Shown one piece after another: positions 29,101-58,613 of a stretch of 64,000 bases of DNA; position 1 is the first letter of the stretch, and every line of letters starts with the position of its first letter. Both the position numbers and the translations under genes were made by a program. The stretch is from Dialister hominis (GTDB taxonomy: Bacteria > Bacillota > Negativicutes > Veillonellales > Dialisteraceae), in contig NZ_AP019697.1 in the NCBI RefSeq assembly GCF_007164725.1, positions 1,461,501 to 1,525,500 of the forward strand. The letters are read 5' to 3'. The notes beneath the pieces are model-generated. The model ran no database searches. It saw only the letters and a program-made list of their open reading frames with translations, and was not told the origin of the DNA.

Positions 29101-29150
29101 AAAGGGGCCGTGGCAAAATGATTGCACATTTTGTCACAGCCCCTTTTTTA
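29101..29150 (-). terminator. Long hairpin terminator after guaA (CTGTGACAAAATG family)
   Basis: A 20-bp stem (AAAGGGGCCGTGGCAAAATG paired with CATTTTGTCACAGCCCCTTT) with loop ATTGCA, 13 bases past the guaA stop and with T/A tails on both strands. Confidence 0.88.
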
Positions 29151-53202: not shown

Positions 53203-53248
53203 AATGGGGCTGTGACAAAATGGTTAATCATTTTGTTGCAGCCCCATT
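53203..53248. terminator. Long hairpin (CTGTGACAAAATG family)
   Basis: AATGGGGCTGTGACAAAATG pairs with CATTTTGTTGCAGCCCCATT around GTTAAT. It lies between the rpmB terminator and a repeat block. Confidence 0.8.
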
Positions 53249-53436: not shown

Positions 53437-53460
53437 AATTTTGTCACAGCCCCTTTTTAT
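53437..53460 (-). terminator. Half copy of the long-hairpin family
   Basis: On the minus strand GGGGCTGTGACAAAATTCGC lies just past the TIGR03943 stop but lacks a nearby partner arm; the next complementary arm is about 200 bases away, on the far side of the repeat. Confidence 0.55.
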
Positions 53461-53468
53461 TTCCCCTG

Positions 53469-54176
53469 CTACGGATAAATGAACCCGAGCACAGGAGGCG
53501 CTTTCGTGATGGCCACAGGATGGACGTCGGGCAGAAGCTGTCCGTGGGAAGTCATCGTGCCAAGCGTTCCTTTGACGCGCACCCAGCTTCCCATCGGAAG
53601 CTTTCCATGATCGCTATAGGCAGCAATGCCGAATCTTGATGTATCGGCAATGCAGCAGGTCATGGCGACTCGCCCCACTGTCACGACGCCTTCAGGAAGC
53701 GAACGGTCGTCGCGGCTGACTTCGCCGGTCAGCAGGATCGTCCAGCCTTCATATTTCTTCGGGTCTTTGGAGATTTCAAGGATCGTCTTGTAGAAATTAT
53801 CCGAGGACAGCTTGATCGTCTTGTTCCATTCATCGACGCTCCCCTCTTCCTCAACGGGCGCCTGCACGGCTCCCGGTTCAGGCGACTTTGCCTTGACGGC
53901 AGGAGGCGGAAGGAAGGGCGACGCAGCAAGGAGAAGGATGAGCGTCAGCGGTGCAAAGAGCGCGTGGTAATTTCTTTTATACGACCTTCTTCTCCATTCC
54001 CTGATAGCCAGAAAAAGCCAGGCAGCAAGGGCGAAAAGAGAGGCAAAAAGCGCATATCGTACGTAAGGCACCACATAATTCTGATACCCCTTTGCTGCGA
54101 AAAGTGCGAGAAGCGCAATCAGGAGAAAGGAAATGAAGACGCCTGCCATTCCCCTTTTATTAGAAAACAGTCCCAT
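53469..54176 (-). CDS. TIGR03943/DUF1980-like protein
   Basis: About 235 aa: two or three N-terminal membrane helices (VFISFLLIALLALFAAKGYQ, ALFASLFALAAWLFLAI, FAPLTLILLLAA), then a soluble domain with WTILLTGEVSRDD and CCIADTSRFG. This family is usually encoded next to a DUF318 permease, as here (B. subtilis YcgQ with YcgR). The ATG at 54176 is six bases from AGGAGGGG; one codon upstream also works. The frame upstream of it belongs to the permease gene. Likely an extracytoplasmic partner of the permease. Confidence 0.85.
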   Translation of the reverse strand: MGLFSNKRGMAGVFISFLLIALLALFAAKGYQNYVVPYVRYALFASLFALAAWLFLAIREWRRRSYKRNYHALFAPLTLILLLAASPFLPPPAVKAKSPEPGAVQAPVEEEGSVDEWNKTIKLSSDNFYKTILEISKDPKKYEGWTILLTGEVSRDDRSLPEGVVTVGRVAMTCCIADTSRFGIAAYSDHGKLPMGSWVRVKGTLGTMTSHGQLLPDVHPVAITKAPPVLGFIYP

Positions 54177-55717
54177 CATACCCCTCCTTTCAGGAATACG
54201 AAGAGCATCGAGCAGGCAAATGTCGTAAGGATCGTTACCAGTGCCCAGCGGATGACGAAGGATTTCCTGCACATGGAAGACATGAGAAGGACATTCCTGA
54301 GATCCATGACAGGACCTAAGAGAAGGAAGCCCATGACGGATGACGGTGCCATGGAGAGCGAAAGGCTCTTTCCGATCATGGCATCCGATGTCGCACAAAG
54401 CGAGAGGCAGAACGCGATCAGCATCATGCAGAGGACGGATGAAACACCGGACGTAAGGCCTGCGCCTTCGAGAATCGGTCGTATGGATACCTGGAATATG
54501 GCGGCGAGCCAGGCGCCCATGATGACATAGCGGAAGGTGTACCAGAATTCATATCGGCTGTGGAGAAGAAAGAGCGAGGCCTTCGAATCTTTTTCTGAAG
54601 GAATCAGCTCTTCTGTCCCCTGCGGCCCTGAAAAAGCCTTCAGCGGATTCTTCTTGTAGAAGGCAAAGGTAGCGCCGACGAGGACGGCATTCAGCCATCC
54701 AAGAAGAAGCCTTCCTCCCACCATCGAAAGGTCGCCGCCAAATGCATACCATGTGCTAACGAGGACGACCGGATTCGTCAGAGGGCCTGCCATGAGGAAT
54801 ATCATGGTAATCGCAACGGGCACGCCCCTTTTGCAGAAGCCCCTGAAAAGCGGCGTCAGCGCGCAGTCGCAGAAGGGAAAGAAGAACCCTCCGATGAGCG
54901 CAAGCGGCACAGAGAGAACCGGGTGCTTCCTGAGATAGATTTCCCACGGCGGACGCGAGCTGTACAGCTGCATGCCCGTCGAAAGGAGCACGCCGATCAG
55001 GACAAAAGGCAGTGTCTGCAGCGTGATGCCGACCGCCAGAAGAGAAATACGGAGAAGATTTTCCCCCCTCGTAAGAAGCGCTGCTGCCAGGAAAAGAAAT
55101 GACCACAACAGGATAAAAATATCCAGCCTTCTCTGCCAGAGTCCTTTGAAATGGTCTGTGAACCTTCCGGACCTGACATACAAATTTCCGGCAGACTTCG
55201 GTGTCACGATGCGGAAAGAGGCGGAAGGATTCCATGCGGAAAGCTTTTTCCCGGCTTCCTTCACACCTTTTCCCTTTTCGTCATTGGCAAAGAAAAGAAT
55301 CTCATCGGCAGATTCCAGCTGCGTTAAGATGGCTGTCCCCGTCTTTCCCAGAAAGAAATTCACAAAATTTTCATCGGCGGAAAAGTAAACGCGTTTCGGC
55401 TCCATCAGGCGGGAAAGATGCGTCTCATAGATAAGGTGCTCCCAGTCGGAGAAGGGACGCATGCCGTTCCATTCCCACCAGATTTCTCCGATCCAGTGGT
55501 CACGGATGATGCGGCCTGCTTTTTCAACAAGCTCTTCATCCGAAAGGGAACTCGCATCAAGGACGATCTTGTCCTCTGTCGAAACGTCCTTCCTCCCCTT
55601 TTCCGAAAGGATGACCAGACATTTTCTGTACCGCCTCTGGGCAAGGATATCGTTCAGCCGATGGCTCTTTCCGCTCCCCAGAAATCCCGTCATCACATAG
55701 ACGGGAATCCTATCCAT
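54176..55717 (-). CDS. Fusion of a CobW-like P-loop domain to a DUF318-type permease
   Basis: A 513-aa protein. Residues 1 to about 195 look like a degenerate G3E/COG0523 GTPase: YVMTGFLGSGKSHRLNDIL is the P-loop, but the CxCC metal motif and NKxD are missing. Residues 200-513 are a permease of about eight helices with GGFFFPFCDCALTPLFRGFC, whose two Cys and Asp resemble the DUF318 transporter core. The two are normally separate proteins. Start and stop overlap its neighbours by 8 and 1-4 bases. A metal permease with a fused ATP/GTP-binding domain is the simplest reading. Confidence 0.82.
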   Translation of the reverse strand: MDRIPVYVMTGFLGSGKSHRLNDILAQRRYRKCLVILSEKGRKDVSTEDKIVLDASSLSDEELVEKAGRIIRDHWIGEIWWEWNGMRPFSDWEHLIYETHLSRLMEPKRVYFSADENFVNFFLGKTGTAILTQLESADEILFFANDEKGKGVKEAGKKLSAWNPSASFRIVTPKSAGNLYVRSGRFTDHFKGLWQRRLDIFILLWSFLFLAAALLTRGENLLRISLLAVGITLQTLPFVLIGVLLSTGMQLYSSRPPWEIYLRKHPVLSVPLALIGGFFFPFCDCALTPLFRGFCKRGVPVAITMIFLMAGPLTNPVVLVSTWYAFGGDLSMVGGRLLLGWLNAVLVGATFAFYKKNPLKAFSGPQGTEELIPSEKDSKASLFLLHSRYEFWYTFRYVIMGAWLAAIFQVSIRPILEGAGLTSGVSSVLCMMLIAFCLSLCATSDAMIGKSLSLSMAPSSVMGFLLLGPVMDLRNVLLMSSMCRKSFVIRWALVTILTTFACSMLFVFLKGGV

Positions 55718-56693
55718 GAGAAGCTCCTGAAAGTTCTCCGGCCGCCTCCTCTGTCTTTTCGCTTCCGATAAGGACGAGTCCGGTCGGTTCCTTATCCGTA
55801 CCTTTGATCAGGAGACTTCCCGGCGTCCCCTGTAAAAGAACCGGCTTTCCGCCAATGCGTATGATGCCCTTGGCGCGGATGAGTGAATAGCGGACCATAA
55901 GGCCCCTCAGTTTTCTCTTGAAAGATTCCACGGATTCATCCGGGAAATCGACCGTCACGATGGACTGCTGCAGCACTTCCTCTTCATGGTCATGGTCGTG
56001 TTCATGCTCGTGGTCGTGATCGTGCTCGTGTTCATGCTCATGGTCTGCTGTAACGGATCCAAGGTACTGGAAGGTCTGGTCTTCCTCAACTGATCCTTCC
56101 CCGATGAATCCTTTGACCCAGGCAGAAACTTCTTTTTCGTCCCAGTCCTTCATGAAGAATTCTGCTTTCTTTGCATGTTCAGCAAGAAGTTTCTGCAAGA
56201 AGGATTCCTGTCCTTCCGGGCAGCTCCTGACAAAAACGGCATCGGCTTCCTTGAGCTGGTCTTTGTAGAACATCCAGAAATTATGGATGTACATGGGAGC
56301 CGCTTCTCCGTCGACAAGCGTCACGACGCCTTTGACTTCACAGAGCCCTGCTTCTTCCGGTTCCTTCAAAGCGGACAGGACATCGGATGCCATAGCGACG
56401 CCGGACGGCTCGATCAGGAGCAGTTCAGGCGATGCAGCGGCGGCGACAGCCCTTACCGCATCCCTGAAATTTCCGCGAAGACTGCAGCAGATGCATCCTG
56501 CCGTCAGTTCATACAGAGAAAGCGGTTCGCCTTCCATCAAAGCACCGTCCACATTGACCTCGCCGAAATCATTCTCGATCAGTGCCAGTTTCCCCCGCAC
56601 CGGATTGTGATCAATCAGCATTTTGATCCACGTCGTCTTGCCGGCTCCGAGGAACCCGCTGACGACTAAGACTTTCATTTTTCCAGTACTCAT
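55710..56693 (-). CDS. CobW-family (COG0523) GTPase with a His-rich loop
   Basis: A G3E GTPase of 327 aa, a metallochaperone class often linked to zinc. Motifs: VSGFLGAGKTTWIKML near residues 10-25, AGCICCSLRGNF (the CxCC site), and LLIEPSGVA. Between residues about 220 and 245 lies a His/Asp/Glu repeat (HEHEHEHDHDHEHEHDHDHE), likely a metal store. The CobW C-terminal domain follows. The start follows AAAGGGGGTTATC. It is the first gene of the permease operon. Confidence 0.92.
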   Translation of the reverse strand: MSTGKMKVLVVSGFLGAGKTTWIKMLIDHNPVRGKLALIENDFGEVNVDGALMEGEPLSLYELTAGCICCSLRGNFRDAVRAVAAAASPELLLIEPSGVAMASDVLSALKEPEEAGLCEVKGVVTLVDGEAAPMYIHNFWMFYKDQLKEADAVFVRSCPEGQESFLQKLLAEHAKKAEFFMKDWDEKEVSAWVKGFIGEGSVEEDQTFQYLGSVTADHEHEHEHDHDHEHEHDHDHEEEVLQQSIVTVDFPDESVESFKRKLRGLMVRYSLIRAKGIIRIGGKPVLLQGTPGSLLIKGTDKEPTGLVLIGSEKTEEAAGELSGASHG

Positions 56694-56732
56694 GATAACC
56701 CCCTTTATCATTTTTCTTGATGATAGCACATG

Positions 56733-56749
56733 ATGGAAATGATTTCCAT
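56733..56749. promoter_or_regulatory. Fur/Zur-type operator upstream of the CobW-permease operon
   Basis: A perfect 17-base palindrome, ATGGAAATGATTTCCAT, resembling the AATGATT core of Fur-family boxes. It overlaps the likely -35 region of a promoter with TATCAT as -10, about 40 bases before the CobW start. Confidence 0.65.
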
Positions 56750-56835: not shown

Positions 56836-56879
56836 AAGGGGCTGTGACAAAATTATTACACATGTTGTCACAGCCCCTT
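56836..56879 (-). terminator. Long hairpin (CTGTGACAAAATG family)
   Basis: AAGGGGCTGTGACAAAATT pairs with ATGTTGTCACAGCCCCTT around TTACAC, just past the nitroreductase remnant. Confidence 0.82.
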
Positions 56880-57222: not shown

Positions 57223-58053
57223 AAGAGCGGCTGTGAACTGCTGAGAGAAAAGGTCGCACAGGAGGTCGTGAAAATCCATCAGGAATATCCGGATATGGGA
57301 TACCGCCGGATGAACGATTGGATCAAGAAGTATAGCGAGAGCCACCTTATGGTAAGTGACAGTCTGGTTCTTCGTGTCAGGCGGATACTTAATATTAAGT
57401 CCGTGATCAAATACAAGACCGATGGCTGCACTCGTAACGCAAAGGATCCAAAGTACATTTTTGAAAACCTGCTGAACCGTGATTTCGATGCAGGCGTATC
57501 CAATGCAAGATGGATGACGGATGTCACCGAATTCAAATACACAACGGCTGATGGAGTTTTGCATAAGTTATATTTAAGCGCCATTATTGATGGCCATGAC
57601 CGTCGGATTGTCTCTTATGTCATCGGCGACAGAAACAATACTGCACTGGCTTTTGAGACAATGGAAAAGGCGCTTAAAGAGAATCCAGGAGCACATCCAA
57701 TGATTCATACTGACCGCGGATTCCAGTATACAAGCAACGGATTCCATAAGATCGTTGAAAAAGCAGGACTGGTTCACAGCATGTCCCGCGTAGGCTGCTG
57801 TGCAGACAACGGTCTGATGGAAGGGTTCTGGGGAATGCTGAAGCGCGAACGTTACTACACACGTAAATTCACCAGCCGCAAAGCAGTGGTAAGCATGATC
57901 AACGGCTACATCTACTTCTACAACAACAAACGCATTCAGCGCAAATTACATCTTTTAGCCCCAATGGAAGTATTCAACGCAGCTCCAATGGCTGCATGAT
58001 TAAGATTAAGGTACGATTAGATTTTTTATGATATTTATTTGTCTGTATTAACA
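57222..58053 (+). mobile_element. Truncated IS3-family element
   Basis: Only the orfB part and the right end remain. The orfA gene and left end are missing, cut at the junction with the nitroreductase remnant. The element seems to end near TCTGTATTAACA at 58053. Confidence 0.7.
57268..57999 (+). CDS. IS3-family transposase OrfB, 5'-truncated
   Basis: A 243-aa frame; in-frame codons back to about 57222 (LLREKVAQEVVKIHQEYPDM) show that the true N-terminus has been lost. The rve catalytic triad is visible: WMTDVTEF, HTDRGFQYTS and GLMEGFWGMLK. The GTG at 57268 is only a nominal start. Without OrfA and the left end it is unlikely to transpose. Confidence 0.85.
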   Translation: MKIHQEYPDMGYRRMNDWIKKYSESHLMVSDSLVLRVRRILNIKSVIKYKTDGCTRNAKDPKYIFENLLNRDFDAGVSNARWMTDVTEFKYTTADGVLHKLYLSAIIDGHDRRIVSYVIGDRNNTALAFETMEKALKENPGAHPMIHTDRGFQYTSNGFHKIVEKAGLVHSMSRVGCCADNGLMEGFWGMLKRERYYTRKFTSRKAVVSMINGYIYFYNNKRIQRKLHLLAPMEVFNAAPMAA

Positions 58054-58613
58054 AATCCGCACCAGAAGCAGAAGCATTAAAGGAATATACGAAAGAAACT
58101 AATAATCCAGAGCTCCAGAAGATGGCCAGGGAAAAGAGCCATGAAGAAAGGAAGCTTTATACCGAATTAAAGAAATCCCGATGGATACTGTTAAAGAAGG
58201 ACGACCACCTGAATGAAAGGCAGAAAACTCATCTGTTGGATATCCTGAGCGAGCATAGGGATTTGGCGATTTGTTATGCCATGAAGCAGGAGATGACTCG
58301 TCTGTTCACATTGACTGACTATGAAGAAGCTCTCGCCGGATGGACAAAATGGATTCAGGCTGGACTGGAGAGCGGGATTCCTGCCCTGGTAAAGTTTGCC
58401 CGGCAAAAGCAGAAGCGAATCAAGGGACTGGCTGCTCATGCCCTGTATCCTATCAATACGGGGAAGCTTGAAGGATTCAATAATAAGATCAAGGTACTAA
58501 AAAGAATCGGATATGGGTACCGAAACATGGATTATTTCTTTACCCTTATCCGATTCCATTCTTTACCTAAAAATTATTCATCCCCCCAAATTTCCGTGAA
58601 GAGCCAAACCTAA
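58054..58613 (+). pseudogene. C-terminal fragment of an ISL3-family transposase
   Basis: About 185 codons remain, starting KSAPEAEALKEYTKET and containing HTLLDILSEHRDL-like sequence. It ends with the family signature KLEGFNNKIKVLKRIGYGYR and FFTLIRFHSLP. No N-terminal zinc-finger or first Asp remains. It abuts the IS3 remnant, which may have inserted into it. Confidence 0.8.

Follow-up and report, generated by a model that had tools for sequence, protein, structure and literature searches.

A permease-fused G3E domain lacking CxCC, encoded beside a COG0523 GTPase in a putative zinc-handling operon of Dialister hominis

Introduction

COG0523/G3E GTPases such as YjiA, YciC, ZigA, Zng1 and CobW share their fold, a P-loop and the ExG strand region with the fused protein described here. 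The nickel metallochaperones HypB and UreG are also G3E GTPases. They form GTP-dependent homodimers that hold metal between the two subunits, each of which contributes ligands.

The permease half of the fused protein belongs to a family that is already familiar from ArsP_1/DUF318 and TIGR03943 pairs, such as Bacillus subtilis YcgR/YcgQ, Streptococcus pyogenes ScfA/ScfB, Streptococcus mutans SMU.746/747 and the Bacillus anthracis pair that includes BAS1632. S. pyogenes requires ScfAB, which are homologous to YcgR/YcgQ, for fitness during infection; the function of the pair is unknown (PMC5584981). In B. anthracis, the unfused ArsP_1 permease BAS1632 adjoins yciC (BAS1633), and the upstream region binds Zur (PMC6336718).

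We analyzed a 64,000-nucleotide stretch of the D. hominis genome (NZ_AP019697.1, positions 1,461,501 to 1,525,500; hereafter the window), in which a permease of this family is fused to a G3E-like domain. An earlier, sequence-only reading of this DNA knew of no description of the fused form. We likewise found no description of the fusion or of the GTPase pairing discussed below in open-licence PMC papers, and Haas et al. (2009) mention neither the permease nor the fusion.

The operon and its fused protein

Three genes on the minus strand, with overlaps of 8 and 4 bases, encode a His-rich COG0523 GTPase, the fusion and a TIGR03943 protein. The end-to-end arrangement described in the sequence-only reading was thus confirmed, with the following coordinates and Pfam or NCBIfam matches:

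56733-56749, minus strand: perfect 8-1-8 palindrome ATGGAAATCATTTCCAT, operator candidate, overlapping a promoter-like -35 hexamer
55710-56693, minus strand: canonical COG0523 (CobW-type) G3E GTPase, 327 aa (Pfam cobW, 9.5e-33)
54176-55717, minus strand: fused protein, 513 aa (Pfam cobW and ArsP_1 within one ORF; 79 homologous fused ORFs)
55157-55717, minus strand: N-terminal G3E-like domain of the fused protein, no CxCC (profile against PDB, Foldseek, motif counts over 80 proteins)
53469-54179, minus strand: TIGR03943 putative permease subunit, 236 aa (NCBIfam TIGR03943 and Pfam DUF1980_C)

The GTPase gene starts with ATG at 56693, with GTG at 56729 as a longer alternative. Its product contains the Walker A motif GFLGAGKT, the metal motif CICC, EPSG and a His-rich loop, which places the His-rich stretch noted earlier in the free GTPase. 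We propose that this protein is a zinc metallochaperone. In the fused protein, a COG0523-like G domain (approximately residues 1-187) precedes an ArsP_1/DUF318 permease (approximately residues 198-513). Pfam cobW matches residues 5-52 above its gathering cut-off (E 4.6e-5), and ArsP_1 (PF03773) matches residues 224-506 (E 1.1e-47) over its full length (163 bits against a cut-off of 32.3; profile positions 5-292 of 294). Hydropathy predicts 8 transmembrane segments in the permease half and 3 in the TIGR03943 protein. The latter scores 90.1 bits with the TIGR03943 profile (cut-off 88.8) and carries a C-terminal DUF1980_C domain (Pfam, E 2.9e-19) with a CC motif, TCCIAD. Because the second loop is positively charged, this domain is predicted to lie outside the cell.

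The first half of the fusion had been read as G3E-like. When we modeled the N-domain alone (mean pLDDT 91), Foldseek returned YjiA first (E 1.3e-9, TMq 0.75), followed by HypB, the Ffh/FtsY dimer GTPases and UreG. VIA with the full-length model gave Z of 14.9 for HypB and 14.4 for YjiA, and a profile of 63 domains, run against the PDB, matched YjiA entries only (E 1.7e-13 and 8.9e-14). Since the model, Foldseek, VIA and the PDB profile agree, we conclude that residues 1-187 form a G3E domain, for which Escherichia coli YjiA is the best match by both profile and fold.

This domain had also been described as a degenerate P-loop domain. The P-loop is in fact intact, as GxxxxGK[ST] is kept in 80/80 fused G domains (GFLGSGKS in the window protein); what has degenerated lies elsewhere. 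CxCC is present in 0/80, and all 80 keep ExG and carry EWNG or a close variant in place of the E-x-S/T-G Walker B region (in the window protein, E39-x-G41 and W80-x-E-W-N-G85). In contrast, CxCC and E-x-S/T-G occur in 69/69 of the partner GTPases, of which 66 also fit the strict P-loop pattern. Because CxCC is absent, we regard the fused domain as COG0523-like rather than as a full member; it further differs from COG0523 proteins in having no CobW_C domain and in being anchored to a permease. Across the 63 domains of the profile, G11, G16, K17, E39, G41, W80, E82, N84 and G85 are invariant. In the profile alignment, E39 corresponds to E37 of YjiA, which is mutated together with C66 and C67 in the zinc-bound YjiA structure 4ixn. 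A simple NKxD pattern was found in only 2/69 canonical partners, and since it is missing from most of them, we dropped the guanine-specificity motif as a criterion.

Distribution and origin of the fusion

A single-sequence search with the window protein across one-per-species genomes gave no match. Searching these genomes with an alignment of the N-domain yielded 88 relatives, and in the 80 loci of these that were read, practically every complete ORF was a full-length fusion. Homologous fused ORFs number 79. Holders include Veillonella, Megasphaera, many Clostridia, Synergistaceae (Synergistota) and Anaerolineaceae (Chloroflexota). Within the order Veillonellales the fusion is carried by 26/61 genomes, and within the family of the window genome by that genome only (1/12). 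As relatives across the order and in other phyla carry the same fusion, we rejected the possibility that it is unique to this genome or arose recently: the fusion is old and widespread, which the earlier reading had overlooked. The single occurrence in the family could reflect either horizontal origin of the operon or loss elsewhere; the GC content of the operon resembles that of its surroundings, and the window protein sits on a long branch.

The neighbors are also retained. A CxCC COG0523 gene lies ≤400 bp upstream of 68/79 fused ORFs, and TIGR03943 lies downstream of 76/79. Permease family, partner and gene order are the same as in the described ArsP_1/TIGR03943 pairs. Of the 11 fused ORFs without the upstream GTPase, two are at contig ends, one has the GTPase downstream and the other eight have no adjoining CxCC GTPase gene and no contig end that would account for this. 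Six of these exception genomes were searched: all six have other COG0523 genes, and in four a second fused copy adjoins a canonical COG0523 gene. Elsewhere in the phylum the permease stands alone (approximately 300-390 aa, without a G domain), with TIGR03943 beside 13/13 high-scoring examples and COG0523 beside 4. The two forms also differ in a permease motif, which is CDC in 80/80 fused proteins and CEC in 12/13 unfused ones.

In a quick tree, a well-supported branch has the unfused permeases together on the same side, and a single fusion event may therefore lie behind the fused proteins. The branch that leads to the window protein is long (2.04 changes per column), so the function of this protein could have shifted.

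The degenerate G domain beyond the permease

Weak matches to the N-domain in other genomes, with a P-loop, E-x-N-G or a close variant and no CxCC, occur in two further settings. The first consists of soluble proteins of approximately 320 aa that end in DUF1980_C, the domain of TIGR03943 (6 loci, E 4e-19 to 1e-12). The second consists of proteins of approximately 210 aa that contain the G domain only, mostly with EVNG (5 loci):

DUF1980_C fusions: L167:2638-3600, L168:3178-4134, L169:1854-2816, L170:3335-4288, L184:1538-2500, L185:1225-2187
Stand-alone G domains: L171:2894-3517, L186:3030-3653, L187:3354-3977, L188:3127-3750, L189:1692-2321

In 11/11 loci read, a CxCC COG0523 gene is directly beside the degenerate-domain gene, and the genes for stand-alone G domains overlap its end. 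(L173-L182 and L190, which hold a separate COG0523 type with E-x-S-G and no CxCC match, were left out of this pair count.) The partners at the 11 loci score approximately 240-260 bits with a profile of the window partner family, compared to 39-160 for other COG0523 proteins there. As the degenerate domain adjoins a CxCC COG0523 gene also where there is no permease, its constant companion is the GTPase and not the permease. We interpret these loci as a single partner family that has its own degenerate companion, to which different domains are attached. One point of conflict is DUF1980_C, which is predicted to be outside the cell in the TIGR03943 protein and is presumably cytosolic in the soluble fusions.

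Our central finding is the permease-attached form of this domain. The recurrence of the pair where no permease is attached suggests that certain COG0523 proteins function as unequal dimers, a directly testable idea. Extending this, we tentatively suggest, at somewhat less than even odds, a two-part class of metal GTPases in which an intact CxCC COG0523 protein would have an obligate E-x-N-G partner without CxCC. The destination of the metal would depend on what this partner carries, be it no further domain, DUF1980_C or the ArsP_1 permease, and the permease form would allow GTP-dependent docking and direct handover.

Proposed mechanism

The model that we prefer for the operon, to which we give a probability of about 0.5, is a zinc-handling membrane machine in which the degenerate G domain docks the CxCC metallochaperone on the permease as a GTP-dependent heterodimer. 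The free COG0523 GTPase would serve as the soluble zinc metallochaperone, and the N-domain of the fusion, a probable diverged paralogue that kept the P-loop and fold and lost the metal-binding cysteines, would be the membrane-anchored half of the pair. Docking would allow metal to be handed between the permease, with its conserved CDC and C-x-x-x-D motifs, and the CxCC site. TIGR03943 would act as an accessory subunit of the permease, and GTP hydrolysis would separate the pair. We infer heterodimer formation, metal handover and, in this organism, zinc as the cargo.

The arrangement would be comparable to FtsY receiving Ffh in the SRP system, a heterodimer of the same SIMIBI class of GTPases, in that a soluble carrier would pair with a G domain on the membrane side. 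The comparison is functional: the pairing is a proposal here, and the sequences show no relationship beyond a shared fold class. Both SRP GTPases are active, while one half of the window pair has an altered motif. HypB and UreG differ in another respect, in that the window pair includes a G domain that lacks CxCC and is joined to a transporter.

The fused G domain could instead be a regulatory gate, with GTP opening or closing the permease alone and the free COG0523 protein serving zinc enzymes and being merely co-regulated. Retention of the P-loop and fold in all 80 fused proteins would suit such a gate, as would the eight fused copies without an adjoining COG0523 gene. However, the same degenerate domain adjoins a CxCC COG0523 gene in the 11 loci that have no permease, and we consider the gate unlikely, although it is the alternative that fares best beside the docking model.

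Linkage to zinc acquisition genes

The docking model takes zinc as its cargo from the genomic context of the fusion. Among the 54 non-Veillonellales loci that have upstream ORFs, the nearest four contain znuA or znuB in 28 (confirmed with Pfam) and a Fur-family gene in 16. The znu-linked loci often have znuC and a Fur-family gene too, and one locus (L172) has the order znuA-znuC-znuB-COG0523-fusion-TIGR03943-COG0523. The same scan found znu neighbors in 0/20 Veillonellales loci, and the window operon likewise has no znu gene beside it. The znu genes of the window genome are near 1843112-1847319, far from the operon, where they follow a larger ORF that, judged by eye, resembles the nickel-cofactor protein LarC.

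Together, the gene neighborhoods strongly link the fusion family to zinc acquisition. Since many relatives sit in znuACB/Fur-family clusters, the metal is most likely zinc. The metal-related function, with the free GTPase as metallochaperone, that the sequence-only reading had put forward is supported. With znuACB and a Fur-family gene as neighbors, the permease-tied form suggests that the transporter is a possible source of metal, and gives the ArsP_1/TIGR03943 pair (YcgRQ, ScfAB) a concrete hypothesis, namely zinc handling.

The operon might also encode an exporter for zinc or copper that resembles SO_0444 or ArsP, which the GTPases would load with metal from the cytosol. The permease half does weakly resemble the SO_0444 Cu/Zn efflux family (NCBIfam NF033936, 35.2 bits) and SaoE (33 bits), but these scores are far under the equivalog cut-offs (300 and 325), and the clusters with znuACB and Fur-family genes belong to the uptake side of zinc homeostasis. 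Because of this linkage to zinc-acquisition genes, we favor uptake or allocation in zinc shortage over detoxifying export, which we judge improbable. Least probable of all is that, on leaving the zinc cluster, the operons of Veillonellales switched to another metal, for example cobalt or nickel in the window organism: the missing znu neighbors in this order and the absence of the upstream palindrome from the genome's own znu genes would fit, but genes, motifs and order are the same as in the znu-linked clusters and no cobalt or nickel genes were seen beside the operon.

Upstream palindrome and flanking elements

The sequence-only reading placed a Fur/Zur-like palindrome in front of the operon. 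The palindrome is real and perfect, and the 2.4-Mb genome contains only two exact copies of its 15-base core, this one and one inside a coding sequence. A Fur/Zur operator was not supported. The palindrome is not conserved in the promoters of 66 relatives, in which none of several consensus forms for Zur, Fur and AdcR was clearly enriched. The znu genes of the window genome do not carry it either, and no obvious metal genes are marked by its other near-exact copies. Two Fur-family proteins are encoded in this genome, at genome positions 890043-890411 and 1651965-1652321. These results give no clear support to Zur regulation through the palindrome; from its form and position, the palindrome is plausibly an operator.

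A short way upstream of the operon are two transposase genes. The one at 57268-57999 is an rve integrase-core (IS3-like) ORF, and the one at 58122-58613 is an ISL3-type DDE ORF whose match covers only part of the profile. The window also contains hairpins built on GGGGCTGTGACAAAAT, a REP- or MITE-like family, at 53204-53247, 53438-53453, 56838-56877 and 29104-29143. The window has 8 GGGGCTGTGACAAAAT sites at ≤2 mismatches (0.06 expected), the genome has 130 at ≤1 mismatch, and members of the hairpin family flank the operon on both sides.
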